The position numbers were made by a program, and so were the translations under genes. The notes beneath the pieces were generated by a model. The model was not told the origin of the DNA and did not search any database. It saw only the letters and a list, made by a program, of their open reading frames with translations. Positions 1 through 37,006 of a DNA stretch of 64,000 nt are shown here, one piece after another. Location of the stretch: positions 124,001 to 188,000 of the forward strand of contig JAQGDQ010000176.1 of assembly GCA_030141605.1 (NCBI GenBank), in the 5' to 3' direction. Numbering within the stretch: the stretch's first letter is position 1; every line of letters begins with the position of its first letter. This stretch comes from Tubiluchus corallicola (lineage: Eukaryota; Priapulida; Priapulimorpha; Priapulimorphida; Tubiluchidae).

Positions 1-1439
1 AACATGTCTAAGACTATGAGCCACCTACTTGTCTCTTCTATGCTCTAATCATAGAAAATGCTCTAAAACAGAAAGTAAGTTCACCATACGGACAGAAATT
101 TATTAACTTGTCACAACCATGTCACCATTTTGGTTTCGCACGTTTTTAAATATTATTGTTGATAGGATCTAATACCATTCTAGTTCCAACAACTGAAACC
201 AACTTCTCCTCTTACTGAATTCCAACTTATGGTAGCACAACCAGCGTAATAATTAATATTAAATAACTGATAATATTAAATATAATAGCGAATTATACAT
301 AATAAAAGTCAAACGGATCTCAATAACAGAGTTATTATGTATCAATAATGTATAATTATGCTCCTAATAATTTGCATTAAAATTTCAGTCAAGCAGACCT
401 GAAACTTAATTATATTTTAGTCCAGCTGCTTTAGCAGGTTGAGTTTATGATCTAATCATTCCCAGTAATCGAAAAGTTAGCCTTTCGTTTAAGTACTGGG
501 CACCATATTTAAAACAAATGTTTAAAGATAAATATTTAAATATAAAAAACGAATGGAAAAAAGTTCGTACAGCCTGTCAACTACAACTATCTCTTATTAC
601 CAAACAATTGGACTGTTGTTAAAATTCCTGAAATTTTTTTGAATTGTTCATCGTTAGGCATGTTGCTCCGCCGGGCAGGGATTAGGAGGAGTTGTTTGCT
701 CAGTTTCTTATCAAATAATAGGTTACTGATAAAAGAAGCAGAAGCAGCAAAGTTAATAGTTGACACGCTTATCTTGCAAGTATTCGTGGAACAAAGGGAG
801 GATCTAGGTTCTATATTCAAGTAAAAACGATAAGTAAAAGTAGCATCGCTTCAATTAAACAGAAATTAATAGAAGCAAGCAACACGCATTATACAGTTGT
901 TTTTAAAATATCCTTTTTACTCGTCATATGAATGTCTGTCTGACGATCCTTATTTCGTCACGAAAATGAATATCATATTATACTCTGTAAAATAACATGT
1001 TCATTTTTTGTTCCAATTTTTTTATGTTTTAAAAGAGCCTACTTACGGCGCAAATGTAGGTTCTTTTGTAAACACTGAGGGTGTATTACATGCATGACTT
1101 ACTCCCATTTATTATTTTCTCAACAATGAATAAAATTTTGAATTAGCAAGATTACGCCTGTAGACATACTATTACCAGAAATTGTATATGCGAAAAATTC
1201 TATAACAACTTTTCGTAATTCACCACCGCAAGAAATCTAGATAGGCCTACAGATATGCACTGCAAAACCTTCAAGAAAACTATTACTGGATTATCCATTA
1301 TCTAAATCTAATACAAGCCTAATATAAGTTTTAACCGAAGGTGAAGTTCGCCCTTGACAAAACATCTGTTATGAGCCGAAATCAGCGGCCAATCAATCAC
1401 CTGCAGATAACTGATACCAGTATAACCGGCAGGTAACTT
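1..1439. other. AT-rich non-coding stretch
   Basis: No gene is supported here apart from a weak minus-strand candidate exon at 601-725, listed separately. The stretch is A/T-rich with short AT palindromes and has no recognisable RNA gene. Confidence 0.5.
601..725 (-). CDS. candidate internal exon, unknown protein
   Basis: I do not recognise this sequence. On the minus strand a long pyrimidine tract (rich in ctgcttctgcttctttt) runs into ATCAG at 726-730, followed by 125 nt that are open in one frame and contain the peptide RRSNMPNDEQFKKISGIL. The segment ends at a GGTAAT that could be a 5' splice site (GT at 600-599). The frame needs two codon bases from an upstream exon, so it cannot follow the phase-1 signal-peptide exon at 23.1 kb directly. 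The opposite strand is also open here, which weakens the case. Without a homolog or transcript it remains a guess based on splice-site quality and amino-acid composition. Confidence 0.2.
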
Positions 1440-1633
1440 TATCATATATAAATTACAAATTTACAAAACTTTTTAAATATATGGACGAACGGTTACGAAA
1501 AGAAAAATGTCTATCATATGCATTCAATTTTTTAAGTGACAATTCCCTATTCAAGTTCCATACAGCTTTCTTTCTTGCAGAAAAGAGCATTAATTTTTAA
1601 CCTCACCAAGGTGATTTTTACATAAAACCAGTT
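1440..1633 (+). repeat. left arm of long inverted repeat
   Basis: This pairs with 3775-3970 on the opposite strand. The best-conserved core is at about 1523-1581. Confidence 0.75.
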
Positions 1634-2284
1634 TCGAACATTAATAACTCATTAATAAGATAAATATTAATAAACTCCTGAACAGCCGTGTTCTTTTTCA
1701 ATGTCACCTTTAAAAACAAATTTTTGACTCTGAAAAATATCGGCACAGCATTCGAATAAATGACGAAAGTTAAGTAACCACTTTGTGAAATTACATTTCT
1801 GAAAACACAGAAAATAAAGCGTATAAGGTTGCATAGAGTTCGTTTTTACTCAAAATTCTGGTAAACTACATTCAAAGAGAAGCATTAGGATTATAGTACA
1901 CATTGGAAACCTTACCCTATTAACTAAAACAACAGGTTTTGTAAATTTCGTTTTTTAAAACACTAAGTAATCATTCAAAGCAAAACAACATATGTTATAT
2001 ATAAACGATTAATTATTAACCCATCAGCTTAAGTCTACAGATTTTCTCAAAATAAATTAAAAAAGAGGTTTCTGAAAATTTGTTTATAATATATAATAGT
2101 TTTTGTCATCATCCAAACTTTCATGTAGTTTAATAAAAGCAATACCCGCACAAATTAATAATTTGATTAATTCTATTCACGTAACAACAGTCATACGACA
2201 GGTTTTTTTATATTATAATTTGTTACGTAGCAAAAATTCAAGTATTTCTTCTATTTTTAAATAGTTGCTGTTCCATATACACAT

Positions 2285-2334
2285 GTAAGCCAGTCCTCAT
2301 ATTGAATTAGTAAGCCAGTCTTCATATTGAATTG
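2285..2334 (+). repeat. 25-bp tandem duplication
   Basis: Two copies of a 25-bp unit (GTAAGCCAGTCYTCATATTG and following bases) lie head to tail and differ at one or two positions. This is a recent local duplication inside the inverted-repeat element. Confidence 0.9.
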
Positions 2335-3440
2335 ACGTCTACCATAATGTCAATCATTTTCGTTGACTGCCCAATCAGCGTGCAAGTTATTCACACACCC
2401 TGCAGCAGGTACGTTCGGGACATTTGGCTACAGCTCCGTCTAACGCTGTTATGTAAAATGCTCAACTTTTTATTAGTTAGCGGGAGAAATATTAGCCTGG
2501 TTCTAGATTTTATTATTGTCAATTGAAATTGCAAGTGAATTGGTGGAAATATATAGTCTAGTTTCGTTTATAGGATTAAATACACAACGCTTACGTCTAT
2601 GAGTTGATGATTAAAACATTTTGCAATCAAGAAAATACGCAGTTTAGTTATGGCTTTGCAAGTTAGATAAAAACAACTATTTGATTCAACTTTAAAGAAT
2701 GGCAAAACAAAATGTTTCCTTTCCTGGCTAGTTTTTATAAACACTAATGAGATCTTCACAGTCAAAATTAATTCAAATGTGGTCAAAACTTATATTATAC
2801 ATCAATGTAATATTAGCTAATTGTACGCTATGTTTCCGGTTATAATCGAGGTTAAAAGATACCATTGGGATGTATGTGACTCAGGCATTCAATATAAGGG
2901 TCGTCTATGGAATAGAACAACCAAATTTATTCCATTTCCGTAGCCTAACAAACGGAAAAATACAAAAACTTAATAAATTTTGCAGATGAGCACATGATCA
3001 ATTAATATAGAAAAATACATCGCAGGCTTGGTGTTCGTATGTTTAAATGCAAAAAACACTTAATATTTCTGTTGCTCGTTTATTGTAAAAAAGCAAGGCT
3101 AACTGGCTTAGTTTCTTTATTATATTTATGTCTCTGTATTTTGTAGTGCTTTGAAACTTCGTCTCTACATTCTGTTTAAATTGAAAAGTTATTTTTTGGC
3201 TACTTAAAGTGTTAATTTCGTGTTAAAATAGCTGCTGCTACGCAAATTTGAGTTTACGAAAAAGAGCAATTAGTTTATCTGCTGATTAGACAATAGTGGT
3301 GACTGTCATGTTGTTTAGTTCAGTTTATTTTAGCTTAAACAGTTGTTGTCCCGAATGCTGCTAAGGGTGCTACGTTGCAGCGGGGGCGGAGCGATAGACT
3401 AATATGCTTGACATCAATTATTAACACAAACGGCAGCTAC

Positions 3441-3534
3441 AGTAAATGCTAATTGCTTCGCCTATTGTATACATAATACATATGTGCTGTTGTTATAAAC
3501 AGTACATGTATACTAGAAGCAATTGGCATTTAGT
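3441..3534. repeat. short inverted repeat / hairpin
   Basis: AGTAAATGCTAATTGCTTC with GTATAC at 3441-3472 pairs with GTATAC..GAAGCAATTGGCATTTA at 3508-3534. A stem of about 25 bp with a ~35-bp loop is possible. It lies within the larger inverted-repeat element and may be a nested MITE relic. Confidence 0.6.
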
Positions 3535-3774
3535 GTAACATTAGAATAAATCCAGGGGCAAGAAGTTGATACGTGCACATTGCATTATGAAAACACACAG
3601 TGACTGCTATTGAAGAAGCACAAAGCACAAGTTTCTATTGTTTTCAATATAGTAACTACAGAACCCCCAAAACAGCCATGCAAATGACAAGATAGACACA
3701 AAAGCTTCATTAACAATAAATCAGGAAGCTTTGAACTCGGTGCCTTAAAGATGGACATATTATATGTATATCAG

Positions 3775-3970
3775 AACTGGTTTTATGTAAAAAAAATCAC
3801 CTTGCTGAGGCTAAAAATTGTAGATCTATTCTGCAAGAAAGAAAGCTGTATGGAACTTGAATAGGGAGGCGTCACTTAAAAAATTGAATGTATATGACTG
3901 AAACTCTTCTTTTCGCAACTGTTTGTCCATGTATTTAAAAAATTTAGTAAATTTGTAATATATATCATTT
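3775..3970 (-). repeat. right arm of long inverted repeat
   Basis: This is the reverse complement of 1440-1633; alignment limits are given with the whole element. Confidence 0.75.
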
Positions 3971-6550
3971 ATTTAGCGAATTAAAGTAGTACAGAGGTAA
4001 GTAGATATAGATAATGAGTAACAATAGGACAAGACCAAAAATCATTTGCCTGACATGACAATACCTAAACACAATAAGACGAAAAAGGCAGAAAAGAAAT
4101 GTGCACTATTTAGCAATATACTTATAGTATTTTTATTATTATTATCTGGATAAACTGCTGACAATTTGACGTGATCACACGTTTGAGCAACATTTTCGGA
4201 GCCTCCCTGTATTTTTGGAATACGTCCATGTGCTTACTATTCTTTCCTGTGTAAGAAGCTGTTTTCCTTTTCGCGTTTCATATCTTTGGCTTGAATTGGA
4301 TTATTGTCAGATGTGTCATGTATCAGCAGTCACACTTGGAGTCGCCTTTTCAGTTTTGGTATCCCCTCTCGGATAAATTATTTTAAAGTAAACAGCGCAA
4401 ACTATAATGAATTAATTATCACACATGCAGCTATACACTGGGGTGAACAGAGAACGGTAATCAGAGAACGGTAATCATCTCCTGATCATATGTATCTGTA
4501 TCAAGTATAGGATTCACGTACAAAATGCCGTACATGCCAACGCATGTATACAATCATTTGTGGTAAATACCTTTGCTTAACACATTCACACGCACAGACT
4601 GAACAGATAGACAGATTCACCTTCGTAATTGGACGCAAAAATAATGTTCTACATTGAAGCAGTATAGATCTATACCAGAATTTCATTAATCAACGACCAT
4701 ATAAATCATTGCTTTCAGGAGCGCACGTACACAGTAAGAGCTTTATGTGACACTCCTAGTTAGCAACATTATAATACGTATGTACAACTCCTTTGTGTAA
4801 TAGTTAGCACGCATCATTTACATTTGGCTAGGCATTTTCAAATGAACTTATTCAACGTACTAATATTAGGGACACCCACTAAAGCGATTTATCAATTTTG
4901 TTTGACGGCAACCATGCCACGCATATTATCTCAATGAATCAAGTCCAGGTGTACAGTTTTACGTGCATTAGACATCTCACCTGGTTGTGCAGCACCCCTG
5001 GACAGGCACAAGTTTTTCTAAATAAATGCCAGGCACGTGGCAAAAATATTTGAACAGTGGGATGCAGGATAAAAGCCTAGGAAGATGTCATCCCAAGATA
5101 AATATTACAGGGGAGGTGAATGAACAACAGCTTTCTATTTTACACAAAAAATCGACAGAGAAATTGCACATATCTGTGGAAAAATTTATTATTATAAACT
5201 TTATTATACTACGATTTTGCACACAACGAAAAAGATGATATGGTGGTGTATATAAACAGACTCTTAAAATAATTCAGCTTTCGCACGATGCTGGTTGACT
5301 CAATACTCCAAAAGACATATAGTTCAGGAGTACATCACGAGATGCAATCTGTAGGTTACAAAAACTCGAAAAGTTGGTTATTATACAATCAAACATAACC
5401 CCTAAAGCACATAACTCAAAAAGGTAGAAATGAAAAAGTGCATACAGCTAACTTTTTGAAGAGAAACTTCTCGTCAGCATAGAGAAGTACATAAATTTAT
5501 TATAGAATAAACATGGAAAGAGTACGAAAGTCACACAGACCATGATCAGCTGGTCACTCAGCTTTTAAAAAAGAAATTTGTATTGGATGTCTTTAATTGG
5601 CTTCAGAAGAAATAAGAACTATTTTGGTAATGTATAGTCATTAAAAGCAAACGCTTGCTAATAGGTCACACATGTCGTAAAGACTGTAATTTTTGCAGAC
5701 TATGCTAGTGAAAAAAGATAACTGAACTGACACGATCATAAAGAAAAATGACCATGCAGTTTTCATAGGAACTGCTTTCCTGTGATATAGAAGTAAATGC
5801 ATCCATATCATAAGAAAGCAGCTTCAAGCGACACAACAGACAGCCATCCATGAACATAACATTAATCAACGCGCGTAAAAACGATAAGGCTAAAACCGCC
5901 CAAAGACGACGGTCTGTAAAATCAATGAGTACAATCAGTTTTAAATTTGTAGTTGCAAATGCTGCTTATATTTCATTGAATAAGACAAGCATCTTCATCA
6001 TGCGTTCGTCAGGATTATTGAAAGACATTCTATATGACACGGTGCAAGGCAGAAACACGTCACCCTGAGATTTATGAATGAAAAAGACAGCGCCAAGCAC
6101 AGAGAACGCGGATCTATAAAATTATTGAACAGTTTCGAACAATCGCAACAACTAAAACAAAAACTATACGCTTAGTATCAAAATACGTTTATCTCGAATG
6201 CAAAGTTTAGGGCAAAAATATATACTGTAGCAGTTGAGAAACACTAATTTTACAATTGATTATAGCAATTGCAACTCCAGTTTCTGTTCTCATAATCAAG
6301 GCACTTATATGCTTTGTATTTTGAACACGCCTGGCGTTGTAGGTGGTTTAAACTAGCCGACGGGCAATTTGAGTAATAAAATTGTTACGTATATGGCGGC
6401 AACTTCGATTATGCACTGAGAAAACAGACTGAAAACTCTACGCCAGTCATAACGTAACCTAGCTGATTTTTAAAAGACAAAAACAAAGACAAGATTTATC
6501 TACCGTCGCTCTTTTAACAAACAACATCAACACCAACGGCTATTTAGTGA
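3971..6550. other. no gene seen
   Basis: A/T-rich DNA without a supportable exon. The only local structure noted is a perfect 14-bp tandem duplication (CAGAGAACGGTAAT twice) at 4448-4475. Confidence 0.5.
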
Positions 6551-6561
6551 CTTACACTTAC

Positions 6562-6599
6562 CACACACAAATAACGAATAACATGTACCCCGTATGCAT
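6562..6599 (-). CDS. possible short first coding exon with hydrophobic start
   Basis: On the minus strand an ATG at 6599 opens 12 codons reading MHTGYMLFVICV plus two bases. They run straight into a consensus 5' splice site, TGTG|GTAAGT (GT at 6561-6560). The hydrophobic run would suit the start of a signal peptide. The sequence upstream (6600-6640) is locally GC-rich, unlike its surroundings. Twelve codons are too few to be convincing. An alternative reading has a phase-1 internal exon beginning after AG near 6629. No downstream exon was identified. Confidence 0.15.
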
Positions 6600-8275
6600 G
6601 CCCTGGCGTTGGCAGCCGCTAGTCTCGAACCTCAAAATTGCGTGGTTGCAGACCGAAATCTAAATCACTCGGACAAAAAATCTCCGGACACAAAAAGAGC
6701 TCAAATTTGAGATTGCATAACCAGGAAAGCGCAGGAGTAAAGAGATTGAAAACTCCAACACCATGCAGATATCATATAGTGACATATTTACAGCGGTTTA
6801 TTTTACAAGGTTATCTGAGCTTTCGAATAAACCAAGAATACCCGCAAGTCAGGAAGCGCAAAATGAACGCTTCAAATTTACACGAAGGCTATAATTTTCT
6901 AACATTTTTCACACACCATTAATTATTGTTAAGCAATTTGACAGTTCGGTAACTCTAGTGAAAAAAATGAATGAAGAAGGGACGGGTTGACGCACATAGT
7001 GGGCGTTACAGAGACAGCTGTTACAAAGAATTTTTACCCATAAGAACCACGTGACAACGAAAAAAAGTTCTTTTGGAAACACGATAAGGCAATGAGTGTT
7101 ACGTCTATAGTTTTAACAAGTGTCTATGCCAGCGCAAGGCTACACTTTCATGGCTGTGATGCTTTGAAGCCTATAACTATGCAGACAAGTAGCCGCGAGG
7201 CCCAAAGATTTATAGTGCCGGCGTGCGTTTTTTCTCCGGTAAAAGCAATTGGGTTCGACTTCGCTGTAAATTAAACTAGATACTAGATGCACACCATGTT
7301 CAGTCTGGACGCAGTGCCTTGCCAGATTTCAAACGGCTCTCTATGAATAAAAGCACTATCCATACAGATTGAGCCTAAACAAGGTATATCAGTCATCTCT
7401 ATCACAATGCCAGATTTCTCAAAAAACATTCTAATTGTAGCACAGCATTTGGAAACTAACACGTCCCAAAAGACAAAGACATCCGGAGTCATCTAAGCTT
7501 TTATATATAAGACGGTTGATATTGGTGCGAATGAAAATTAACATATTGCAAGCGGTACTAAACTAGTTTACTCATAGGATCTTAATGTCATCTTAATTGT
7601 AAGTAAATTCTCCAAAGTTTATAGATAAAAACGATTTTGTCACGTGGTTTCTTCATTCATTACTCTTCATCGCCGTTCGTCACGCTAAAAAAACCAAACC
7701 GCGGGTAATTTTCCGCATAATTAACGACTATAACTGGAGACAGCCCGTCTAGCCGATATACGTGTACACCTGGTTTATACGTGTACAAAAGCTCGTCAGC
7801 TTATCTCACGGTAATTTCTCAAAAATGTTAGTCAATAAATGTAGCAAAATGGGTAGTTAAGCAAAGTGGGACACTGAAGGAAAAGGCTACCTGTAGATCT
7901 ATCATATATTCCGAGTGCACCCGGAGTTTCGATTCAACCTCAATGACACATTTTACTTGGGAAAACTGGAACTCTTCTATCCCAATAAGCAACGACACTG
8001 CAAAAGAACTCTAACAGCTAAACTGTGTTCACAACAGTGTAACATGACGCATTTTGACAACATCAAACATAACTGCAAATAAGCAACAGATTTCGTCATT
8101 ATTTCTTCTAGTGGACTAATGAAAGAGTAAAGCCGTTTGGCTGCAGGCAATTATCTTTCACTTTCCGCTTTGCTTTCTTTGAGTTGACGTGAGTGATGTA
8201 AAGTATTGCTTTCCTTATCGTCAAGTGCTCATGTTTTGCAGCGTTCTGTGTATCCTTGGAAACCCTGACAATAGT

Positions 8276-8387
8276 GAGCTTAGAATCCACATTAAGTAAA
8301 ACTTTTCCTGTTTATCCTGCTCAGTTCATTTGAGCTTAGAATCCGCATTAAGTAAAACTTTTCCTGTTTATACTGCTCAGTTCATTT
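8276..8387 (+). repeat. 56-bp tandem duplication
   Basis: The unit beginning GAGCTTAGAATCC is present twice with a period of 56 bp (8276-8331 and 8332-8387). The copies differ at only two positions, so the duplication is recent. Confidence 0.95.
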
Positions 8388-8704
8388 CTCCTGCACCATG
8401 CACTTTAAGCAAAAGTCACTGCTGTACGCCTAATCCAATGTTATTTCTTATTTACTGTTATATTTTTATAGCCTTTGCCAGCAATTACAGTCTATTTCAT
8501 TTTTTAAATGTCATCTTTTGAAACAACGCGGATTTTCCTACGCCGAAACACTGGCAAACAAAAATCATTCATAACATCACAATTATCATCGTCATCATAC
8601 GTGTTGCTGTCACCACCGCCGTGGCCACCCACAATCAGCACCACCAGTTTAAGCAAATAAACTTCAAAATAAACAACAAATCCAAAAAGACAGATAAGAA
8701 AAAG

Positions 8705-8730
8705 CCTGTGTGTGTGCGTGCGTGTGTATA
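8705..8730 (+). repeat. (GT)n microsatellite
   Basis: Short imperfect GTGTGTGTGCGTGCGTGTGT tract. Open reading frames crossing it are simple-repeat artefacts. Confidence 0.8.
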
Positions 8731-8829
8731 TAACGTTCATGTGCATGTTCATGTACAAAATACGACAACAAATTGTTCATACTTGTGCAACCTGATAAAA
8801 TTTAACAAATTTTGCTGCAATATATAAGG

Positions 8830-10600
8830 TTATTTCAAGAAACAGAAATGGTTTAATTTAATGTTTCTACGAAAAGAACTGTCAAACGGTTCTTATAACA
8901 AAGTAAACCTTTCATTTACAGAAAGCCTTTTAAAAACATTTCGCATTACCAGTATGCTATTACCGAAATTGTGCTTTATTCACACATTATGTAGGTTATA
9001 GAGCAAGTGCAATGACAAACTGCACAATCATTTAAAATGATTACACAGTTACTTCTCAAGGTAACTCTTGTCTTACACGTACAACACCTTGAGCTAGTCA
9101 AGATGGGTTACCAGCTACCTAACACGTGTTATAAGTAGAAACGTTTAACATTTGTGAAAAACGAATGTCTAATTTACCTTTGTAAGATACCAATATTCTA
9201 GCTATAATAAGCCTACAAAGCTGCATATATAGGCTACCGCCGAACCAGAATTTAGAATTCTGATAAGTATATACAATATATTCATATCAAAAAAGCCTTC
9301 GGGGTAGTTACTTTAATTGCATAAAACATATAATTAAATCCGCCTGTGTCAAAGAGTCGGTCTTCAAATTCAAAACATCTAGTGCAATAAAAATGTATTT
9401 TTACAACACTTTTACGAGCGCACCACCCTAATATTACATGTGCTTTCTTTGAAAAGATGCTGTTTAAATTTGGTAAGTACGTGGCAAAAACTTTTCTTTA
9501 CAAGTTTACAACGTCTGCAACATAATTGAAATTGCTCAAAGGACTTTGTTACAGTGAAAGGCTTGAACGTACAAAGAATAAACTCTTGTGATTTGTACTT
9601 ACAGACATGTATAAGTTATATAAATATGTAGGCCTAAACAGACAAGACATTAAGGCCCAATAAATAAGCCTACATGAACACGTATTGTTGTCAAATTTTC
9701 GCTTCATGGCGACAACTAATTTTCAAGGTAAAATTGTACAATATCCTTTTTTATTATAATACGTTATAATAAGTAGTATACATACTACTTATATATTATA
9801 TATATATATATATATATAATAAGCAGCACATAATAAACGTACCGCTTAAAAATCCACGCAGTGGAAGAAGCGATTACGATGACATGGTCTGAAACAGCAT
9901 CGCACCTTCACTCACTTCCGGACTTTAAATATCATCAAGAGAAAAACCTTAATGCAAAATGGCAGGCGGCTAAAAATTGAAACCTGTTTGGAAGAATGCT
10001 TTAATTCAAAAATAATCAACCAGCAGTTACAATTTCCTGGGCATGACCTTTAAATGGTATAGTAGATAGCTCTAATAATTTATTAATAATGTCGGCGTGC
10101 GTGCGTGTATAAGGAATTATGAACTTAATACAAAGGTAAAAGTCATGATCTGAAACACTGTGAAATACAGTGCAAATTGATGTAAAAGGAGGCTGCTATT
10201 TTTTTTAAAGAATATAATGCTACATATATGCTTTAAGGTCTGGCTACAAATATGTCTTCAAGGCCAGGCTAGCCTCTCAAGTGCTGCATCTGCACAAGGT
10301 CCATGCTGCCTTTTATACTAAGCACATACTATCCTACAGGACCAACAATAACATCATTCAGTGGCGGATACTTGCAAGATTGTTTCATTTGCATGCAAGC
10401 CCTAAAGATGCATCTAATTAATGCCACCGTTAAATCGAAAATTTAGATGCTTTAAAGTTTATGACTTAGCCGTCACAAAAGTCAAGAAAAACGCAAATCC
10501 TAAAATGATTAGGCAAATACAAATTAAATTAGTGCTATAACAATTAATCCCTTCAGCAAAGGTAAGTGCTTTACAGTGTATGTATATACTTACAGGGCCT
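8830..10600. other. no gene seen
   Basis: A/T-rich sequence without plausible exons. It contains an AAGTAGTATACATACTACTT palindrome near 9770-9790 followed by a (TA)n tract at 9797-9818. Confidence 0.5.
9797..9818. repeat. (TA)n microsatellite
   Basis: Uninterrupted TA dinucleotide repeat. Confidence 0.9.
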
Positions 10601-10604
10601 TACT

Positions 10605-10648
10605 ATACATACATACGTACGTACGTACGTACGTACGTATGTATGTAT
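10605..10648. repeat. 44-bp perfect palindrome in a tetranucleotide repeat
   Basis: A compound microsatellite runs from TACA units through TACG units to TATG units. The transition makes a perfect palindrome of 22-bp arms with no spacer, centred between 10626 and 10627. It can extrude as a cruciform. The TATG side continues to about 10656. Confidence 0.95.
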
Positions 10649-10679
10649 GTATGTATACAGCTGAGCGTTTACTGACGTG

Positions 10680-11130
10680 AGGTACATTTTTTCCTCGAGC
10701 GCCAAGCATCACGGACATAGGAAAACTCCCATTTTTCATTTGGGTTTTGAGTTACGGCAATTTTTTCACCAGTATTTACGGAATGTGGGGTAGATGTGTA
10801 ATTGGGCTTTTAAAAAGCTGGCACTCTTTAAGCGCCAAAATAGGAGCGAAAATGCTTACCAATGAATAACTCTAAAACTATAGTAAGCAGAGTCACGAAA
10901 CTTGCAGTGAATACACTTATGATACGGACTCAGACAATGGTATAAAGCTGAGATTATTTAAAAGCCCCAGACAGGAACCAAAATGTAAAAATTAAGGCAT
11001 CCACTTTTCATTCATGTTAACGGTCAGGTTTTCTCGATGATCATTTAACTCCCATGGGTTTTTGGATAAAATAATTTTTTTCATAAGCATTTAGATATTG
11101 TACAGGTAGATGTGTACCTACAGTCAAATG
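10680..11130 (+). repeat. diverged tandem repeat, period about 320 bp
   Basis: The segment starting at about 10727 (CTCCCATTTTTCATTTGGG... then AATTTTTTCA... then GGTAGATGTGTA) recurs at about 11048 in the same order (CTCCCATGGGTTTTTGG..., AATTTTTTTCAT, GGTAGATGTGTA). Upstream flanks also match loosely (TTTTCTCGA at 11028, TTTTTTCCTCGA at 10687). This is an old duplication or two copies of a dispersed repeat. No coding content was seen. Confidence 0.5.
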
Positions 11131-11139
11131 ATAATTAGC

Positions 11140-14100
11140 TACGTGCACCATGCGCAGTAGTTAATCACACTTGAACGTAATAATCTACAAGTACTGACGT
11201 GCGTTAACCACACTCGCCCAGGTACAGTAAGTTATAAGCACGGTCACAGCGTTACGCTCGCGGATCTGGATATGAATTCGCTCTGTCTTGTTGCATTATA
11301 AAAACCGTAACAGCTTTGAGGTGCTCGAGCAGTAACCCCATTCTCAACACGCCACAGATTATGTAGACAATTTTTGTGACAATCATGAAACAACCACTAA
11401 ATGCGCCGTTTGTTTGCTAACGATTATATCCATTTCAACATAACAGTAAAATAATAACATCCAAGAAAATTACCGTCGGATGAATAACCAGATAGGTTAG
11501 GCAAGTATTCTTAAAATAAATGGCAATTTCAAACATACAATGCATTTAGCATTGCACCTGAATAAATTCTACACATGTAATTTTGAGACTTAATACAGAC
11601 AAAAAATAAAATATCCCATTACAGGCTTAAAGCACCATGAGTGATGGTCATTAAGAGATTATGGCATACGCTACTGACATAATGTCAATATAAAAAAAAT
11701 AGTACAGTAAAATATAACATCCTTGTGGAATTTGTATTTACTTTACTCAATTAGATTTTGTTCTATTCTAGACATTTTAGCATTTTTGCAGACATACAAA
11801 AATCGCTAAAGGACAAAAAAGAAAAAAACCAAGAACTGCGATGCGCAAAGAAAAATTCTGAATGAAAAGACGCTAGTTGGGCATTGAAGGCTTTTGTATA
11901 AAAACGATGGAAAATTTCTTCCAACTCATTTATTCCTCGACCCTGTTACTCCCACACGCCGCAGAACTTTACAAAGACCTAAGGAGGCGTAAAAGCGTTT
12001 CACCAGTAAATTACAGTGTGCTGGACAGAAACATGTCTGAAGTGCTAACGCAGACTCGCTCAACTGTAAGATTAAACTTAAGGCAGTCATACACTGGATG
12101 ATCCGTGCAAATGGGGTGATGCGAGGTTCCACAGGCAAACATTTGCGCTTTTAAACAATGGACGGCAGTTGCCGGACATCTTGGGTAGATAGTTGTCTGC
12201 CTGTCTCACATCTTTGTATTGCATGCATTAGATGGGTACGTGCCTGTTGCCAGGCTGAACTAGAAACGGTTCTGACACACGCAAAGTAGTGTACTGGCCA
12301 TTTGTTGGCAACACCCCAGGACAAACGAGTAACTATATAAAAAGAATGCAATGATTAGCCTTGGACAGAAGACTTGCTGACAAGCTCAGTGTCCTTAATA
12401 ATCGTGGCATGCGCCGCTGTCAGGAAGTAAAGTTAAGCACGCAGAAAAGATTATTGAAACTTAGATAATATGTTTGCAAAGGTAAAGAATTTCTTTGCTT
12501 CTGGCGCAACTTTAAAATGCGTGCAGTTTGTGCTGAAGGTGAAATTATGAATGATTTAAAACACTTTGTGACTAGCAACATTCTAATAATGTCAGATATG
12601 ACAAACAATATAAATGAAGTCCATGCAAGATAGCCATCATTTCATTATATGCGTATGAAAGGTTACACCTATACTTGCAAACTAAATCCCTTCAGTAGTT
12701 TTGATATTATTTTTTGCCGTGTTATTAACTTAGGTTTAGTTTTCCAAGTTCTACTACTACATTTGTTTTGCGACTTGTGAATCCTCTTACGGTTGATTTT
12801 CTCTTGAATGTGACTTAATTATGTGGTATCATTTATGAAATTAAAAGTTAACTCAAGTTAGGACGAGTGAAAAGCGGACCTTCCACTTTCTTTCTCTTCA
12901 GTCCTCCCAGAGTTTTCCTGGAAGATTTCCTTTAATCATTCTGACGATATCGTAAAAAGAATCTGCTTCTGCAGAACTGTGGTTATATTATTAGTTACAC
13001 TGTTTAGAAAAGGTTTCCGTAGTGACAAAGTTGCGCACGGAAGTTGCCTTTGATGCTGTGACAAACATGCGTTAATCTTGTAAACTATTCATATACTCCC
13101 AGTATTTCATTTACATTAGTCCAAGGTTGCATGCAAATTCGCACGTACAATATGAGAAAAGCAAGCAAGTTTTACATGATAAAGGTTCGCAAATGGATGG
13201 TAAAAACAAGTTAAACAACAGGCTCGAAAAATACCGATGAAATTACTTCAAATTACAAGATCGTTTGTAAGGGCGACTGTAAACACGTCACAATTATTAC
13301 GGCTACAAAAGAACAAGGATAATTTAAAAGTTTACATTAGGTCACGATGTGTTTTTACGTACTACGTTTAAACATGTGGCCGTGCATACTAAACACATAT
13401 TACAACTTTTACACAGGTATAGCAAAGGCCACTGTTTATACACGGGGTTTGACTTCCGCCCATCCTACATTTACCCGCTGAAGTTATGTTTGTGCTTCTC
13501 TGCTCGCATGACAAATATCGCGCGCATAAAAACAGCCTCCTCTGCTAGTGATGAGATAGTACAGGATACATTTGATTACCTAAATCTTTACTATAAACGT
13601 TGTAAAATTATACTGTATTAAGTACACATAAAGGTTACACGCACTTTATTTTACGCAAAGTACAAACCTCCACAAACCAAGCAAAACAATAACGCGAGAA
13701 GGCAGGGCTAGAGTTCTAGATATTCGTGATAGCACACCTGTACTGTAAAAAAAATCTACCGGACGGAAAAGTTATAACAAAAAATATCAAATATGAATAT
13801 CAGAAAATTGCTAAAACGGTACAGTTTTAAACAGAAGCAGGTCTATGAAAACTGAAAATGTAAAACGAAATTGAAGAATACACTCTGAATGTACCAAAGC
13901 GAAAAATGTGGTTGCCCAATCGCACTAATGTCCAACAATTTTACGAGATATTTGGCATTCTCCTCACATTGAGATCACATTCATTAGTATATTTACCGTA
14001 TGTAATGAATATTCGCTTGCGTTCAGTTGCAAATGTTCTTTTCGTTTGCTGAAGTATATAAATAGGTTACACTGGCAATTTTGCCGCCAGCAAGCCTACA

Positions 14101-16190
14101 ACCATCATCATCATCATTTTTTCATAGTCCTTTTATTCTGCCCAATACATTATACAGTCAAATCACAAAGTCCAAAAGTCACAGTTTTGCGCTGACTTCT
14201 TGACATGATATCAACTAAAGCACACAAATCACATTCGCTAATTATACACATGCAACAGGATATGCTATATTTGAATAGTAATTCGATTACAATAACTTAG
14301 TACTTATTACTTTGGTACATATGGTGGTAATTAAAAATTTTACTGATTTACAAATACTTCTGGAAAACAAAATAACTGATTTAGGACCACTCAATTTGTC
14401 GCTATTCAGCCTAATCTTCGCTTTGATAAATAAAATAATTTGAAAGTAAATTTAAAAATCCAACTATTGGCGCTCAATGCAATGGCGCATGCGTACTACG
14501 TTTTTCACTTAATAAACAAACGGCGCGTCAGCTTCTTTATTTTCGTTAAACTAGTTTAATGGAGGAATTTGACCCAAATGGGCTGTTAAATTGACGAATT
14601 TATGAGAAACCGTTTTGGATGTGTGTATAAACGAGGCGTGGGCGCGCGAACCATCCGGTATTCGTCTGTTAGTCTACGTCCTCAATCAAGAAGCAAATTA
14701 TTGCCAATGCAAAACAAACCCAGTGTTTGAGAGAACACAAACATGGCAAACTTTTCAACAAACCAACAGATTTTCACTGCTTGCTAGCAAAGGTCTGATT
14801 TCATTGACTGACAGGCAGACATAGGTATCATTAAATCGATCTCAATTAAAAGTGGTGCCAATTACAAAATAATGAAAACAACATATTCAGACACGATTAA
14901 TCGAACAACTGTCTTTGTTGATAAGTTAAAATAAGGTTTTAACTGGAAGAAGATAGCGATTGATTGCTGTCAAAATTCAAGAATCGGGTCAAATATGGCT
15001 AATCCTAATTGGCTAGAGGTCAAAACAAAAGCTAAGAAGAATAACAAACAAACCTACAGCTGGAGCACAGATATTTGAAAGCTACTAAAATCAACCACTG
15101 TCGACTTGTATTCTCCCCTTCGAGTTAAGTTGACTGAATTCTTGATTTTTTACGGCCCAACAATAGCTATTGCTGCTTATATATTTTCATAACAAATAGC
15201 CCACCTGTTATGAGGCGGAATGTAATGTTATTCTCACCTGAACGCCTTACACCACTGTACCTCGTTTTACAAAGTGCATTGTTCAGACAATGAGACCTTG
15301 ACAGAGCTCAACAGATCTGGAAAAATCGTTTGGATGGACCTTTGGCAAGGCTTACTATTGTGAAACATTTTCTTTCTTTTTGTCAATGAAGCTGTGTTTT
15401 TTAAAACCAGTAGAACATGCTATATACGTTTGACGTTTGTGTGCAAAAGCCAGACACAATTTATTTAGGTTTTCTAGCACAGGATTGATTCTAGAATCTC
15501 ATGCTGACTGTGGCGTTTCAAGTTAAGATCGAACCAATGACCAAAATATTCCAATTCCGATTGCGTACACAAAGAAGACAAGCTCCCCATAAAATAACAA
15601 GAACTTCTGCCAACTAATATTAAAGATGACTTCAGATTAGGCAACGAATACGCCTTTTATGCAAACAAATTAACATAAAGTTGCCAGAGAACATGCCTGC
15701 TTGAAGGCTAAACCATCTATGCATATTACGTATTATAAACATCTATTAACTATGCAACACGTTAAAAACATGCCACATTGTTGACAGCCAGCTTTCGATG
15801 TAACTTTGTCATGCAAATCTCCACATTTGTGTAACAATATCAAGTTTACCGCGGGAAGGGTTTCCTGCAATGCCAGGGATAATTAACTAAAGAAAACCAC
15901 ATAGTTAGACGCGCATACAAATCGCCTGAAAAACTCAATGTCATCAAGCGGTAAACACAGCTGGTTCATGCTGCGCTTGCCAATGGTCACCCCACACACG
16001 TAGAGAGCTATTCCCCCAGGGGCAGGTTGCAACATTCATATTAGTTTTTCATTTCCTTCACAAAATCGATACTAGTACGGTAAAAGACGTGTACACAAGC
16101 GTTTATGGTGGCAATAACCCCTCTAACTAAGGTTCTTTGATATAGGCTAGCACTGGCCTTGTGTTACTAGACCAACAGTTTCATACGGCC
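11140..16190. other. no supported gene
   Basis: Mostly A/T-rich sequence. A slightly GC-richer patch at 12140-12350 is open on the minus strand, but it has no recognisable domain and no convincing splice sites. An (ATC)n tract lies at 14102-14116. A GCGCATGCGT motif at 14484-14493, the core of an NRF1-type site, sits in a CpG-containing patch (14460-14530) and is the only promoter-like signal. Confidence 0.4.
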
Positions 16191-16195
16191 GAGCA

Positions 16196-16207
16196 GGGGG
16201 GGGGGGG
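16196..16207 (+). repeat. poly-G run
   Basis: Twelve consecutive G residues, striking in this A/T-rich window and prone to length error in sequencing. Confidence 0.9.
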
Positions 16208-16209
16208 CA

Positions 16210-17589
16210 ATAAATATGAACGTCTGCTAATTAACTACTGAAAGCTATTCAGTAGAGGTATTTCAGTTCAGAAGTTGTGGCATATACTTAAGAACTGTAT
16301 TCTTTTCTCAGGTCTGCTTGCATGGAAAAGATGCAACTATGGCCATTCAGCTTGTAGTCACCTTCAAGGCTGGGTCGACTAAATATACGGAGTAAACACT
16401 TCAAAGGGACTAGTGTCACATTTGTAAAGTTTAACAATAGATTAATTGAGTCCAGGTGCTCGAAAACAAACTGTAGCCATTCCAGTCATACTTTTGTTGT
16501 AGTAGGTTGCCTCGATTTCAAATTATAGGCTGTAAAATTAGCACGTTAATGTGATAATTAATGTCAACTGCGGGACACATACACAAGCCAATAATTTGCA
16601 ACTGTACTGATAGTTGTCAAGGGTTCTGGAGGGCTGTGGACTGGTTAACAACTTTGGAAACAAAGCCGCCAGTCCATATTCAGTGTTTACAAAAGTGGTT
16701 GATGAACTGAAAACTAAAATGTAGTTCCATTTGGAGGGATATAATGCAACATCGAACTTCCAGGAACGTTCAGCAGTCTCTGGCATTTTCCCGTTAAACA
16801 TATACGTATGCCGCTCTCAGCAAGAAACAGGTAAACATACCGTGCAGACGGCTAAAGAATTTTCAGAGCTCAAGCAAGGCTAAAACACTTTTCTAAACTC
16901 TAAACTGTAAAGTCATCCGATGAGTCATCTCTTAAGCAGCTGCTGTTGAAAGAAAAGACGGAGGCAAGGCAAATTTCACGGATATTGAATTTCACGCATC
17001 CCACACCTATACACTGGCGTTTAGCCGAATATCAACACTAAATGCATGGCAATGACCATCAGACAGATGAAAATGCTGTGAATTTCCTCAAAACTAATTA
17101 TAGTCCACATTGAATTTCTTCGTCGTATCTGTAAACACTAGACGCTAGCAATAAATGCAGGGAAATTAGTATGGCCAACCGGCATTTCTAGTTTAGTCAA
17201 CCGACATAGATTAACCCAACAGTAATGATCGATTTCACTTCATGTACTTCATGTGAAAAATGTCAAACACTGTTAAATTAAATCAATTAAAAATTACTTT
17301 ATGTATCTATATCTGGTGCAATTTTCATTATTTTATCAAAACCAAAATAATTCTAAAACAGAAAGAAGCATTTTTGAAGCAACTATAATGTGCACGATTG
17401 GGCTAACATGCTGTTAGAAGTCAACTACAAAAAGTCTATACATAAAGTGTAAACACACAACAATTTTTCTAGGCAAAGATTTTAGCGTCAAATAAATACT
17501 GGCGAGCGATTTTTGATAATTTAAAAGCAAGCATGTTCGTTTTGCTATGAACACAAGTGACAAACTATATAAAGTTAATTTACTGTGAC

Positions 17590-17627
<38 letters not shown>

Positions 17628-20080
17628 AGCACGCTCTATAAGCAGTGAGCAAACACAATCAAACAAACATCTGTTCATGATGCATTAAAAATACCTTCAA
17701 GGGTAGTTGAGAGACGCCAATGAACAACAGAAAATAGTTCTCAAAAATTATTTAGAATCTGCACAACCCTTCATTTGCTGACAAAGACAAGCGTTGTGTA
17801 ACGCCAGACAAAGCTGAAAATTGATGTCTGTGGAGCATCAATAACACAAACAGGTAAAATTTTATTAAAACTCTGAAAAATCCGGCAAAACGAGTATTTT
17901 AGTCTGAGTTTTGTAATTTAGTACTACAAGGACTTAGATTGACATTCGACAATCAAATGAATTTTAGGAACAGCCACTAGGTGTATGAATTTTGTCCATA
18001 TGTTCCGTCTAGCTTTGTTTATTTAGGAAATACACGTTTTCTGATAGTAACTTTCTGATAAAAGTCACTAAACATGTTGGCAACTTGTAAAGCAACTCCG
18101 TAAAATAATTTACCACAGTTATCGAGTAATGCAGCCAGGATAACCGCAAAAGCATTTTTTTGCTATATTTTACATGTAATATATATGCCCTGTCATAGCG
18201 GACAAAACCAAAATAAGCATCCAGTCAAAGCGGAATACATTGGGATGTGAGCACGTGCTTTGATTTAAGAGTCTACATCTGATATATCAGCCTGGTGTTT
18301 ATTTCACAAATAGCCATAGTGATATGCTAGATTGAGTACATTTACTTCGAGTTAAATGGGCAAAATATCCTTGCTTGCTTATTTGTGATATTCCGTTTTC
18401 TGTTGCGCCACGTGTTGCTTATAAAGACCAGCTACCTAAACACCCAGAAAAGGGATTTGTTCGCTCGCGTAAGCAACTTCATGAAATTCGCTTCCAAAAT
18501 CTCTTACTCGTGATATACGTAAAATCATTTGCCCATTTACAAGGAAGGAACGGACACTCGATTTTGGATCTATCGATTTTGTGTAAGTAGGAAAGTGTGT
18601 AGTAGGATCTACTACTTTACAGAAATGCCTTGTATGTATGAAACAGCATGCATGTATTGGACATGCGCATGGTGCCTAGTTCTCGTCCCCACGGATTTGT
18701 TAAATACTAAAAACTGGTCACTAGAAAATGCAATTTAATCATATGATTACGTCGCTTTGCAAATTTCTTGATACTACCAAGATTTATCCCGATGCTTGTC
18801 CAACTTTAAGTCAATTCACGTAACCACCTATAACAAGCTTTTAATTACTTCCTGTGTTTATATCAGTGGCTTCTGAGATGCAGCGATTACTATAAATGGC
18901 TTCCTTGAGTCTTCCTGCTAATCCATCAGTGTACCGACGTATACATGTGATTCGCGCACTCTGCAAACGTGTCACCGGAAGTGTACGAATCGGACATTAT
19001 CTCCGAACTATGATTCACCTTTTGAGGGCATGAGTGTAGGTTCAAGTACTTTATGTATTACCTACTAACCCGCTGCATAAGATGGGCCTATGTGTAAAAT
19101 CTTTTCTACATAAAATATATCCACTGTCAATCAGTTGATAACAGATACGTGAAACTGTTAACCTGTAATGACTATAAGAAGATCACACATTGGGTACTGA
19201 GTGAGTGACCCTGCGACGCATCGTTTAATTTTGAATACGTTAAAATCAACTGTATAATTAGTTAATTATACGCACATAGCCTACATTGGTTAACACAAAC
19301 ATGACATTCCTGTAACTCTTGTGTTACTTTAAGAGGCAAAATTTCAACTTTCATCCGTTTGTGTTTTGAAATAGAATAAACGTGGCTTATGGCTAAAATG
19401 ACCGTTTTATAGCCTTTGAAACAGCGAAATTAACTGCATACAAACAGTGTGAATATATACAGCAGTGTAATATAACTGTAAGTCTCTCTGTTTACTTGTC
19501 TTTATTTATTAGATTTAGATTATCAGGTTATATGGACACGATAAATCAGGCGAGTAACAAACTGGGCTGCCGATATTGTCAGTTAAGGAGAATTTGACTA
19601 CACAACACTTGGGAAACATGTTTGGGGCACCCCGAAAATTTAAGGAAGACAACACAAGAAAACACCATAAACATCAGAGTAAACAGTTCTGACTAGAGAA
19701 AAATCGATATATATATATACCCGACATATTATTGCAATTGTTGTAATATATATTTATGTAATTATATATATATGTATAATATCATATTGTAATAACACAT
19801 GTAATATCATAATAGTGTTAAATCCCACAAGAATATGCCTGTAATTAATAAATATATAAAAACCTCCTTTTTATTGGGAGATTTGTTATTTGTAGTTCGA
19901 AATTTTGATATTTTTCACGTAAAAAATCATTCCTGAATTATCTGTCTTTAAATTTTATCTTAATTATTTGCATGAAAAAAATCGTAAAAATCCGTATTTC
20001 TACCTACTAACGAGAAGGGAATTTCCATATGTAAGGAGTGTCCACGGAAGTTCTGACCAGAGGTTAGTTGCCCCTTGGCT
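16210..20080. other. no supported gene
   Basis: An 87-codon ATG-initiated frame at 16801-16538 (minus) has ordinary protein-like composition but no recognisable domain or good flanking splice sites, so it is not called. The rest is A/T-rich, with a (TA)n tract at 17590-17627 and shorter AT runs near 19706-19770. Confidence 0.4.
17590..17627. repeat. (TA)n microsatellite
   Basis: About 19 TA units with one C interruption. Confidence 0.9.
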
Positions 20081-21340
20081 CTTGAATGACTAGCGTGTCA
20101 ACACAAAACAATAATTGAACAACATTAGACGAGCGACTCCGGGGAAACATCCTTTTTGGACAAGCCAAGCCTTTGTAGCAAGAGAAATTCTACTCTCACT
20201 AAAACAGCAATTGTTTGTGTTTACACTTTCGGGCAGTATCATTGCACCAGAGAAGAGAAAGTAAGTAGAGATGTAGTAGATAGGAACGATATCACGTAAC
20301 AGCACACCCAATCTTGCCTCAAGCTGCGACAAATATAAGCGCTGGTCGAAGCAAAGCAGTATTCGCTAAATTGTTGATTAACATAATTTTTGCTGTAGTC
20401 TGCGTACTTTCATCCAGGTAATATACTCGTTAAACAGCGACGGAATTTAAATTTTAATCGTTTGGAAGTCATTTTGATTTTTGATATCTCATAAGGAAAC
20501 ATTAGGCGAATGAACAACTGTCAAACTGAATTAGTAATAGGGAAACACTGGATTTCCAGGCATTATATATTAATGTACACTATAGGATCTCAGTAAGTAT
20601 ATAATAAATAATATACCAATATTGCAGACAATTATTTGAAATTTTGCAACGAAAATCATATTCTTCTAAAATTTGGTGTGAGCTATCAGTTTTTTGTCTA
20701 AATCTACAACAGAAGACTCTGCAAAACATTTGTAGGATTATAAACGAGCCAGCCGTGCAACATTTGGCTTCAGCATATAGGAATTAGTTTTAGGCTTTCC
20801 AGGCATAAAAATCTCTTAGAATAACAGCTTCAAGAATTCTCACGGATTTTACATTGGCCAAGTGCCAGACGAATTGCCTAATGCTGGGCTGTGGCGGTAA
20901 GCCAGAGCTTTTGTCTCCGTGTAAAAATGGTGTTCTCACGGATTCAGACTCGCCAACATCTGTGTGAACTGAGATGTTATTCGCTTTGAACTTCAGCACA
21001 ATCGTGTAGTTACTTGGCGAATATCAGTTCTAAAGAGTGACATCTATAGAAAATCTCATGAGAATCACATCTATATAAACGCAAGCAGAAGATGATGCGA
21101 ACTATATCTATATGTGTGACTTTATACGTAATTTTCAGCTTAATATCTACTTCGATGTACTCAGCGCGAAGCCCAGCGAAATGTCGGAAATCGGCAACGA
21201 TCCCCAAGAGCCTCCTCATGCGTTTCAGTCTATTCAGATGGTGAACACTTGCGACCAATTAAAGCTGAATCAACAGGCGCATTTTTCGCATCCTGTTTTC
21301 TTTACCCTTTCTCATATCTACCTCTGCTGCTTTCGCCCAG

Positions 21341-21431
21341 AATAGGAGCTCAGGGAGGAAGACCGTCACCAGGCGAACAACACCAGGAAGCTGAAGGTAC
21401 CTCAGCGGCACAGCCAGACAGGCAGCTTTAA
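21341..21431 (+). CDS. candidate terminal exon, unknown protein
   Basis: A 3' splice site with one of the longest pyrimidine tracts in the window (about 21294-21338) ends in CGCCCAG at 21340. The next 91 nt are open in one frame (GAQGGRPSPGEQHQEAEG in part) until TAA at 21429-21431. The peptide is hydrophilic and low-complexity (G, P, Q, E). A second open plus-strand segment begins after TTTTCAG at 21138 and could be a preceding exon. I found no 5' splice site that joins the two in frame. Elevated GC at 21140-21420 supports coding or UTR function only weakly. Confidence 0.25.
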
Positions 21432-23113
21432 TTTATTTAAGGTTAGGCATGTCCAGAAGTCCGCCATCTTGCAATTTATTATAAAATGTAAACTATCTGA
21501 TCGGATGGTTGTCAGCTTGAGCGTTTCCGCTTAAAAGCGGGATTTGTTAATTAACAATTTTGTTTTGACTTTTACCGGAATCAAATCGGATGTGTAACCT
21601 TTGGCCTCTGTATCCGTCCTTGAGACATTCAGTCTTAGTTGGTCAGTGAACATATGAAAAAAGAGCATTGCATCTCCTTTTATCACGCTTTTTTCTAAAT
21701 ATTTTAAACACAGTGTAGCACAACTTACACACCATAAGTTACTAAATTTTAGAAGAAACGATGAACACATATACAACAATTTCGGACATTCATTCTATAC
21801 TAAAGGCAGTCATTCTAGAAACACAAAAATGTACTGGCTGCTGAGTGACCATATGCTGACTGCATGCCCCCAGTAGTATGCTATGTTGCGATCTGGTCTA
21901 TGATAAACGATTGCTACCATGATACCATGATGCTGATGATGAGAATGATACTCACTACAGGTAGTGCAGTAAAGTGAAGATATGAACACATGTCCAGAAA
22001 AAACTAATTTGCTATTGATAGAAGGCATCTGTTGATGCTCTTTTTTAATTGAGTGATTTTGTAGTTTTCGCATAAATTGGTAGAGAATTTCACAAATCAA
22101 GCTGAAAGAAAAACTTGATATATTTATTAAGCAACTGTTATAGTGCTAAATTTAGCGTGTACTAAATATTGATCAACAAATACATGTATCACATAATTAT
22201 GCGTTTAATACTTAGCATATGATCAACTTCAATATAAAAATATTTTGTTCCATCTGAAGGCTTCTTTCACGCAACAATTTTTTATTAATTAAATTATGAA
22301 TGGTGAATGTAGAGCACATACGATGTTAATAATGTGAAGCACGCCTACTCACGACCTGCTATATTCTGAGTCCACAATGAGAATCATCCACAAAGAAGAT
22401 GATTGTTATAAAGCGCAAGTTTCCTCCACCAAGGAGCCCCTATAGCAAGCAATTTCCCGACCTTTCTACAAACATACTTCATCAAACACCTTTAGGGAGA
22501 ATTCAGATTAATTACCGCCTGCTGTTGCCCAGGACAAACAGCACATGCACGATACCTTTGATTCGACACCCCAAAGGTATCCTCACAGAAACAACTTAAT
22601 TTGCAACCTGGCAGTAACTTTCTAAAAATATATATATTGACCACGCTCAAACCATTCACAAGTAAAACGCTTTCAGGAGTATTTACATATTTACATATCA
22701 TCAACAGGATTATTTACCAAACAATGAAATTATGTCCTATTCAATGTTCACACAAGTTCAACAATTAGGATCGAAACTTCATAGGGTGTTGTGCCAGTGT
22801 TGCTAAAAAAATTATGTCCCGTCCTCATGAACTAATGTATCGGGTAAGTGATGAAGTATAGGACCCTCCTTTTTTGTGTAAACTGAATATGGTTAACTTG
22901 ATTACATACAAAAAGAGGAGCTGTAATAAGTGGAATATACTCACGAAATACTGGTCATGTCGTCCTAGCGTATAATATAATCTAACTACTGAGCTGCACG
23001 AAGTTTTGAATCACTCCTTACAAAAACGTGAATTGTTCCGATTTTAATTTGCAGCAATGTGTGAGTCATTTAATAAAGGAGCAAAAATATTGTGAACAAT
23101 AATTCAAACTTAC

Positions 23114-23210
23114 CCGATTCGGACGATGAGGACACGGTGGCTGATCCACGCACTATTAGAACCACCACTATCACCGCCGCAGCCCACCCGCTGAACATCT
23201 TATTTACAAT
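23114..23210 (-). CDS. signal-peptide exon of a secreted or membrane protein
   Basis: Read on the minus strand this is a complete internal-type exon. A pyrimidine-rich tract plus TACAG (AG at 23212-23211) is followed by 12 nt of leader, an ATG at 23198, 28 codons plus one base, and a consensus 5' splice site GGTAAGTT (GT at 23113-23112). The peptide starts MFSGWAAAVIVVVLIVRGSA and continues TVSSSSES. It has a short polar start, an 11-residue hydrophobic core, and small residues Gly and Ala at -3 and -1 of a likely signal-peptidase site after Ala20, then a Ser-rich mature start. The intron is phase 1, the phase most common after signal peptides and between extracellular modules. The mature protein is encoded further left or beyond the window and cannot be named. 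The call rests on the agreement of acceptor, ATG, signal peptide and donor; RNA evidence is lacking. Confidence 0.6.
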
Positions 23211-23215
23211 CTGTA
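23199..23215 (-). promoter_or_regulatory. 3' splice site 12 nt before an ATG
   Basis: A pyrimidine-rich run and TACAG precede ATTGTAAATAAG and the ATG. The very short distance from acceptor to start fits a 5'-UTR intron or a trans-spliced leader site. Confidence 0.5.
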
Positions 23216-24491
23216 CAACAAACAAAAGTGCATGTTAAAATGTCGTAATTAAAAATTGAAAGCACTGAGCAAGACCGCCACAGCTCAGCACAAATAAAGC
23301 TGACTTAAAAAGAACTGTTACAGATTTAATTATTAATTATTTAAATTTCACTACATTTTTGTAGCTGCACTGTCGCAAACATACATTTCATTAAAAATGT
23401 GAGAGAAAACATTGGAAACCATCAAAAAACTCTTGCTGCATGACAACAAAATAAAATTGTTTCCACAGAAAATATAAATACAGCGTGCAAGTCTTGTGCA
23501 GAAGAAAATTACTGATACGTCAGATACAGCAGAATGTTGATTTAACCCACAAACTAAATGTTAACTACTATCTTAGTTGCTATAACACTGATATTAAATA
23601 TTTTAAAGGCGTAGGTTGCCATTTAAACACCTATCTATGCTCTCATTTGTTCCATAATTAAGAAACCAAGAATAGTGCAAGTTATTGAATTAAGAGATTT
23701 CACGATGATTTAATAGGCCTTGCCTATTTTAGCGCAAACTTAAAAATTGACAATGCTCTGACAATTAATAAAAAATATTAAGTCATAAAAAATATATTAA
23801 AAAATATTAACGCGAAGTTAAAATCCATTGAACTAACTCAGTTTCAGAACTTCTGCTATTATGACTGGACTAAGTGTAGCATCGGTCCATTGGATCCACA
23901 GGGCTTATGAATTCACGCGAGGCTGTGAGTCCAAAGCTCCAAGAAAATAACAACTCTTTGCAAGTACTCGAAGCTAAAATTTAGGCTTTTCAACCAGTAT
24001 AAAAGCACCCACTCCCTTCACTGGTTTTTGCATATTTCAGTAACTTTAGCTGCAAACGTTAGCTTTACTAGAGGCGATTAAACATACGCAAGACTGTGAC
24101 AGAAAGAGGACCGACCCCTCATCACGATTATAAAAATCCTCTCAGGTAACATTACACGGTTAGATCAAGCTTTCAAGCGCGGTTTCCCTTTTGCACAAAT
24201 AGCGCTTAACACCATATTGACATTTACCATGCAACAAGTAACAATCTACTTAAAGCAAACATCTGGCTTTTATATTCTTCCGTATAAGAGATCATCGATT
24301 TTGGAAAAAAACGATAGCTTACGCGGGGTATAAATTTCATCCAGTAGAAACATTTAATGGGACAAGTAATTAGTTAATGTTAGATCAATGGCCCCAGTTG
24401 ATGGACTGTAAATATTGTACGCCTAGATGTCATTTCTAACATTAACTATAAACAACAACAAGTATCTTTCTACCCATCAACTAATCATTAG

Positions 24492-36930: not shown

Positions 36931-37002
36931 ATTTTTTATTTATTTTAATTTATTATTTATTTTATTCACACCCAATAGTAAAATACTGTTTATAATAATA
37001 AA

Positions 37003-37006
<4 letters not shown>

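Follow-up and report, generated by a model that had tools for sequence, protein, structure and literature searches.

A signal-peptide exon of Tubiluchus corallicola as the probable start of the coding sequence of an FGF receptor gene 40 kb downstream

The window, the whole 64,000-nt stretch of Tubiluchus corallicola DNA analysed here (C698:124001-188000 on its contig; window positions are given without a prefix), holds a 97-nt signal-peptide exon on its minus strand, and the flank examined together with it (C698:1-124000) carries the exons of an FGF receptor (FGFR) on the same strand. The features of both are collected in Table 1. In the first-pass annotation, an acceptor, an ATG, a signal-peptide core and a phase-1 donor had been placed within 97 nt, and these coordinates proved exact. 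The acceptor region (23220-23211, minus strand) reads tgttgtacag, and the ATG at 23198 (minus strand) is followed by 28 codons plus one base, leaving the exon in phase 1. The predicted peptide combines a hydrophobic core of 12 residues with a cleavage site marked by small residues, the putative signal-peptide stretch being MFSGWAAAVIVVVLIVRGSATVSSSSESDPPVFKKLPQG. Signal-peptide cleavage obeys the -3/-1 small-residue rule, by which it would be expected after Ala20. The acceptor further suggests an upstream non-coding exon, or some other upstream splice partner, and no such partner was found in this analysis.

Table 1. Positions of the signal-peptide exon, its splice signals and the FGFR exons; all lie on the minus strand.
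Feature	Position	Strand	Remarks
Signal-peptide exon (probable first coding exon), 97 nt, ending in phase 1	23114..23210	minus	Top internal-type exon of the window's minus strand
Coding part, MFSGWAAAVIVVVLIVRGSATVSSSSES plus first base of a split codon	23114..23198	minus	Codon would be GAC, Asp, once joined to the Ig I exon
12-nt 5' leader inside the signal-peptide exon	23199..23210	minus	GC 17%
Acceptor AG of the signal-peptide exon	23212-23211	minus	5.03 bits
Branch-point-like TTAAC	23234..23238	minus	Branch A at 23235, 25 nt upstream of the signal-peptide exon
Donor GT of the signal-peptide exon (GG/gtaagt)	23113-23112	minus	7.35 bits, phase 1
Intron portion inside the window	1..23113	minus	Part of a predicted 40,118-nt phase-1 intron, C698:106996-147113
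Ig I exon, 270 nt, phase 1-1	C698:106726-106995	minus	Splice-and-codon scan
Acid-box exon, 87 nt, phase 1-1, TIYDDDDASDANY	between Ig I and Ig II	minus	Splice-and-codon scan
Transmembrane exon, SITTIMACIIPVLLLVIAFLAYLGYRFRLRK	C698:102503-102738	minus	Single segment between Ig III and kinase, judged by eye
Kinase exons	C698:101390-98155	minus	FGFR1/2/3 match

Splice sites were scored with generic metazoan matrices, and on this scale only 7 of the 7634 GTs on both strands reach 7.35 bits (the donor itself included), while 55 of the 6878 AGs reach 5.03 bits. Between the ATG and the donor the GC content is 59%, compared with 30% and 36% in the 100-nt flanks on the downstream and upstream side of the exon, respectively, and the leader is poorer still (Table 1). 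Since the GC step is equally sharp at two other places in the window, it is by itself not unique. Past the donor, the reading frame continues and stops after 42 codons (MFSGWAAAVIVVVLIVRGSATVSSSSESGKFELLFTIFLLLY), and the second half of this frame is hydrophobic, so that a short independent ORF encoding a membrane microprotein could be proposed. However, AT-rich intron sequence tends toward hydrophobic residues when translated and would read hydrophobic in any case, and the fall in GC from 59% to 30% coincides with a 7.4-bit donor, which makes a microprotein hardly credible.

The exon ranks first in the exon scan of the window's minus strand, with a score of 17.9 against 11.9 for the runner-up. 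A chance coincidence with no transcript behind it appears very improbable. In a set of 400 simulated 64-kb windows (order-4 Markov model), where an acceptor, an ATG, a hydrophobic core and a donor were required together, thresholds at about the exon's own strength (donor at least 7.3, acceptor at least 5.0, hydropathy at least 3.0) were reached in none of the 400, compared with one instance in the real window. At middle thresholds, 22 of the 400 simulated windows contain at least one instance (mean 0.0575) and the real window contains one, the signal-peptide exon alone; at loose thresholds the corresponding numbers are 291 of 400 (mean 1.34) and three. Many features could have been chosen, and because the thresholds were picked after this one had been seen, the simulation serves as a guide and not as a clean probability. 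With thresholds matched in this post hoc way, the simulation agrees with the earlier judgement that the four signals are unlikely to have come together by chance. A further point against chance is that the receptor downstream, which shares both strand and phase with the exon, has no signal exon of its own. A DNA search of the whole genome (343.5 Mb, 2344 contigs) with 131 bp around the exon returned one match, the exon itself; as this search skips very common words, the single match is weak evidence against the exon being a repeat.

Within the window, nothing resembling the body of the gene was recognized: the three minus-strand frames of 1-23113 gave no Pfam family above the cut-off, with one chance match to bCoV_NS6 (E 6.4), and the other frames covered in the window likewise revealed no body, their sub-cut-off matches to Izumo-Ig (0.13), Tom37_C (0.028), CR_prot_dom_plant (0.31) and WHD_CHMP7 (0.093) being taken as chance. 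The same stop-masked method recovered the ASC channel family on the plus strand with E 5e-22, which served as a positive control. Pfam coverage of the window took in the plus strand outside 45001-51599 and 57601-64000 (less two of the three frames of 51600-57600 and one of the three of 30000-45000) and the minus strand outside 52103-64000; beyond the window, it took in only the minus strand of C698:104001-124000. In this last region, Ig families were found at the receptor exons and no further family exceeded its cut-off; a reverse-transcriptase match stayed below it (E 0.00025, 21.2 bits where 29.6 are required), and others, such as AceES-2 (0.11), were at chance level. Searches of PDB sequences with the 28 residues of the signal-peptide exon, with one stop-masked minus-strand frame of the window and with an out-of-frame stretch of the kinase region gave no match, nor did Rfam at gathering cut-offs, and ARAGORN found none. 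No relatives were detected in a phage DNA search with window positions 22100-24200.

Downstream of the window, the splice-and-codon scan revealed a run of strong minus-strand exons from C698:106995 down to 98155, in the order Ig I, acid box, Ig II, Ig III, transmembrane and tyrosine kinase. The kinase exons match FGFR1/2/3 with E about 4e-116 among PDB sequences, and the best 60 of the 917 matches are all FGFRs; one kinase exon, absent from the first chain and query, was found in the gap as a 36-residue stretch. When the ectodomain spanning Ig I through Ig III was used as a query, with the exons absent from its first version read from the sequence, its best matches were FGFR1 (5.9e-66) and FGFR3 (9.7e-64), and FGFRs make up the first 20 of the 26 matches. 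The first, gapped ectodomain query had placed titin ahead of FGFR3 and FGFR1, since Ig domains of a generic kind are already matched by Ig I on its own. Three marks of an FGFR are present, namely an FGFR-type tyrosine kinase, a single transmembrane segment, and a set of three Ig domains in which an acid box separates the first from the second. FGFRL1 was considered as the identity of the gene and rejected, as a tyrosine kinase lies downstream on the same strand; kinase exons together with an FGFR-matching ectodomain indicate a kinase-bearing FGF receptor and not FGFRL1.

The Ig I frame reaches just 7 codons upstream of its acceptor and includes no signal peptide there, so the receptor needs one from elsewhere. 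A scan for initial exons ending in phase 1, run on the minus strand between C698:188000 and 106900 (hydropathy at least 2, donor at least 2), gave six rows. The signal-peptide exon is the best of them (23.6); the other five score at most 14.0 and are located further upstream, none of them nearer than C698:157500. A lenient version of the scan added two candidates in the 40 kb of minus strand between the signal-peptide exon and Ig I, but these score 2.2 and 0.6 against 23.6, and no comparable signal-peptide exon was found in that interval. Over the whole 188 kb, the exon is the best of 27 minus-strand rows. On the plus strand, 3 of 38 rows score above 23.6, with hydropathy of 2.0-2.4 compared with 3.7 for the signal-peptide exon, and their higher scores are explained by the coding term, which is lifted by strongly coding plus-strand sequence.

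Joined to Ig I across an intron of 40,118 nt, the signal-peptide exon gives an open frame with GAC (Asp) as the split codon. The resulting eight-exon model runs from the signal-peptide exon through Ig I (1-1), acid box (1-1), Ig IIa (1-0), Ig IIb (0-1), Ig IIIa (1-0) and Ig IIIb (0-1) to the transmembrane exon (1-0); its phases agree, all junctions are GT-AG, and the frame is open for 440 residues. For Ig IIb and Ig IIIa, the exon ends were placed manually by inspection of the sequence, and some junctions of the model are weak, with 0.5 for the acceptor and 1.1 for the donor at Ig IIIa. Permissive chaining with a low exon penalty also placed six weak exons (6.8-14.3) between the signal-peptide exon and Ig I, which mostly score like background and were not accepted, and a phase-neutral 42-nt exon of phase 1-1 (C698:107351-107392, minus strand), which may be an extra piece between the two. 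We consider the exon at 23114-23210 to be the first coding exon of the FGFR gene with a probability of about 0.88. Sequence, strand, phase, frame and the lack of comparable rivals all fit an FGFR whose signal peptide sits on its own phase-1 exon, and we infer the splice to Ig I, the upstream non-coding exon and the signal cleavage. The exon would thereby send the receptor into the ER, and the mature protein, if cleaved after Ala20, would begin with the eight residues TVSSSSES ahead of the 40.1-kb phase-1 intron, to be followed by Ig I, the acid box, Ig II and Ig III (two exons each), the transmembrane exon and the tyrosine-kinase exons.

Because signal-peptide sequence is not conserved in the family (PMC2806250), homology cannot tie the exon to FGFR. 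Signal sequences hold no family information, and the exon might accordingly belong to another gene, nested in the FGFR gene or situated upstream of it, e.g., one whose fast-evolving exons encode a small secreted protein, the receptor then using a different first exon. A cysteine-rich candidate exon with phase-1 entry does lie 0.5 kb downstream at 22516-22607 (CKLSCFCEDTFG...), and permissive chaining yields further weak candidates. The former has weak splice sites (acceptor 2.4, donor 2.6) and was rejected as a next exon at chance level, and the candidates in general score like unsupported exons of either strand. In the interval that separates the exon from Ig I, no Pfam match on the minus strand exceeds the cut-off, and the FGFR would still require a signal exon, for which these 40 kb yielded no other comparable candidate; a separate gene is therefore quite unlikely. 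Another possibility, also unlikely, is that the exon is one of several alternative FGFR first exons, with a distant promoter giving rise to a receptor isoform distinct in signal peptide and N-terminus and the 40-kb intron containing the switch.

As the first coding exon of the FGFR gene, the exon would occupy a familiar position. Kinase-bearing FGFRs have the same N-terminal exon layout as FGFRL1, their kinase-less sister, and it is FGFRL1 whose published layouts are compared here. The signal peptide of sea urchin FGFRL1 is found on exon 1, whose gtaagt donor is in phase 1; Ig I follows on exon 2 (273 bp) and the linker on exon 3 (84 bp, phase 1), the splice phases being those of the human gene (PMC2806250). 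The Nematostella and human genes share the same exon order and phase-1 ends (PMC2754479). In human and rodents, the signal exon of FGFRL1 is found about 10 kb upstream. It shows little sequence conservation, and automatic annotation of the sea urchin gene misinterpreted or missed it (PMC2806250). Exceptions have been described, as a Ciona FGFRL1-like gene with 11 coding exons is without a signal peptide (PMC2806250) and the Xenopus linker is divided between two exons (PMC2754479). More generally, an excess of phase-1 introns occurs around the sites of signal-peptide cleavage (PMC1626468), and long phase-1 introns of human and mouse genes have been connected with signal peptides and with the shuffling of 1-1 exons (PMC7259759).

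The present gene resembles FGFRL1 of human, sea urchin and Nematostella in its one-exon Ig I and short linker or acid-box exon, and probably also in a separate signal-peptide exon followed by a phase-1 intron. Its Ig I exon measures 270 nt against 273 nt in sea urchin FGFRL1 and its acid-box exon 87 against 84 nt, and the signal exon would likewise lie far upstream, although intron 1 would span 40.1 kb compared with about 10 kb in human and rodents. Unlike FGFRL1, it possesses a tyrosine kinase, and Ig II and Ig III, encoded by one exon each in FGFRL1, are both split over two exons. In vertebrate FGFR1-4 genes, Ig II and Ig III are divided between exons as they are here, and the signal peptide has an exon to itself. 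With the classical FGFR1-4, the gene shares the three Ig domains, the acid box between I and II, the transmembrane segment and the FGFR-type kinase, and no difference of kind was found in the comparison of these features. The gene would repeat the common arrangement with a longer intron.

Earlier, the exon had been called an orphan and taken to mark an unannotated gene for a secreted or membrane protein, whose body was hidden by either a large first intron or fast-evolving mature domains. That it is the signal-peptide exon of a minus-strand membrane protein is very probably right, as FGFR exons follow on the same strand. The large intron was also the better of the two explanations, since the join to the FGFR exons leaves a phase-1 intron of 40,118 nt and the body would lie about 40 kb downstream, outside the window, whereas fast evolution does not apply to Ig and kinase domains that are readily recognized as FGFR. 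The term orphan does not suit an exon that very probably belongs to a conserved and well-known receptor. A conserved receptor kinase is normally annotated. At most, the first exon of the FGFR might be absent from annotation, as described for sea urchin FGFRL1 (PMC2806250), in which case the FGFR model would start without a signal peptide. The result is ordinary and of use for annotation, the gene layout being an expected one.

Elsewhere on the contig, several other features were observed. A gene for a channel of the degenerin/ENaC/ASIC family, with at least two exons, extends over 52422-55004 on the plus strand (Pfam ASC, E 5.1e-22; best PDB match ASIC2, 8e-9), and a viral-contig scan with the channel protein found no relatives. 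An AG at 52409 (plus strand, acceptor score 0.8) precedes its ATG by 13 nt, resembling the 12 nt of the signal-peptide exon, and is most plainly read as the end of a 5'-UTR intron; spliced-leader trans-splicing was considered on account of this spacing and set aside, the AG scoring only 0.8 bits and nothing else supporting it. Just 3' of the channel gene lies a weaker signal-peptide-like ORF (55477-55565, plus strand, donor 7.1), of a kind for which 1.3 per window are expected by chance at loose thresholds. Adjoining long simple repeats of ACCAC and ATG type occupy 50348-50634. Two inverted repeat arms of 174 nt (1446-1619 and 3792-3965), 87% complementary and 2.2 kb apart, are possibly the terminal repeats of a transposon, and no transposase rose above the Pfam cut-off on either strand of that region. 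Convergent with the FGFR gene, plus-strand frames at C698:68997-94079 include WW- and FF-like stretches and resemble TCERG1; a retrotransposon with gag-pol-like frames, recognized by eye, lies within this region (C698:74062-77624). On the same strand, PDZ- and PX-like exons at C698:47664-54231 resemble sorting nexin 27.
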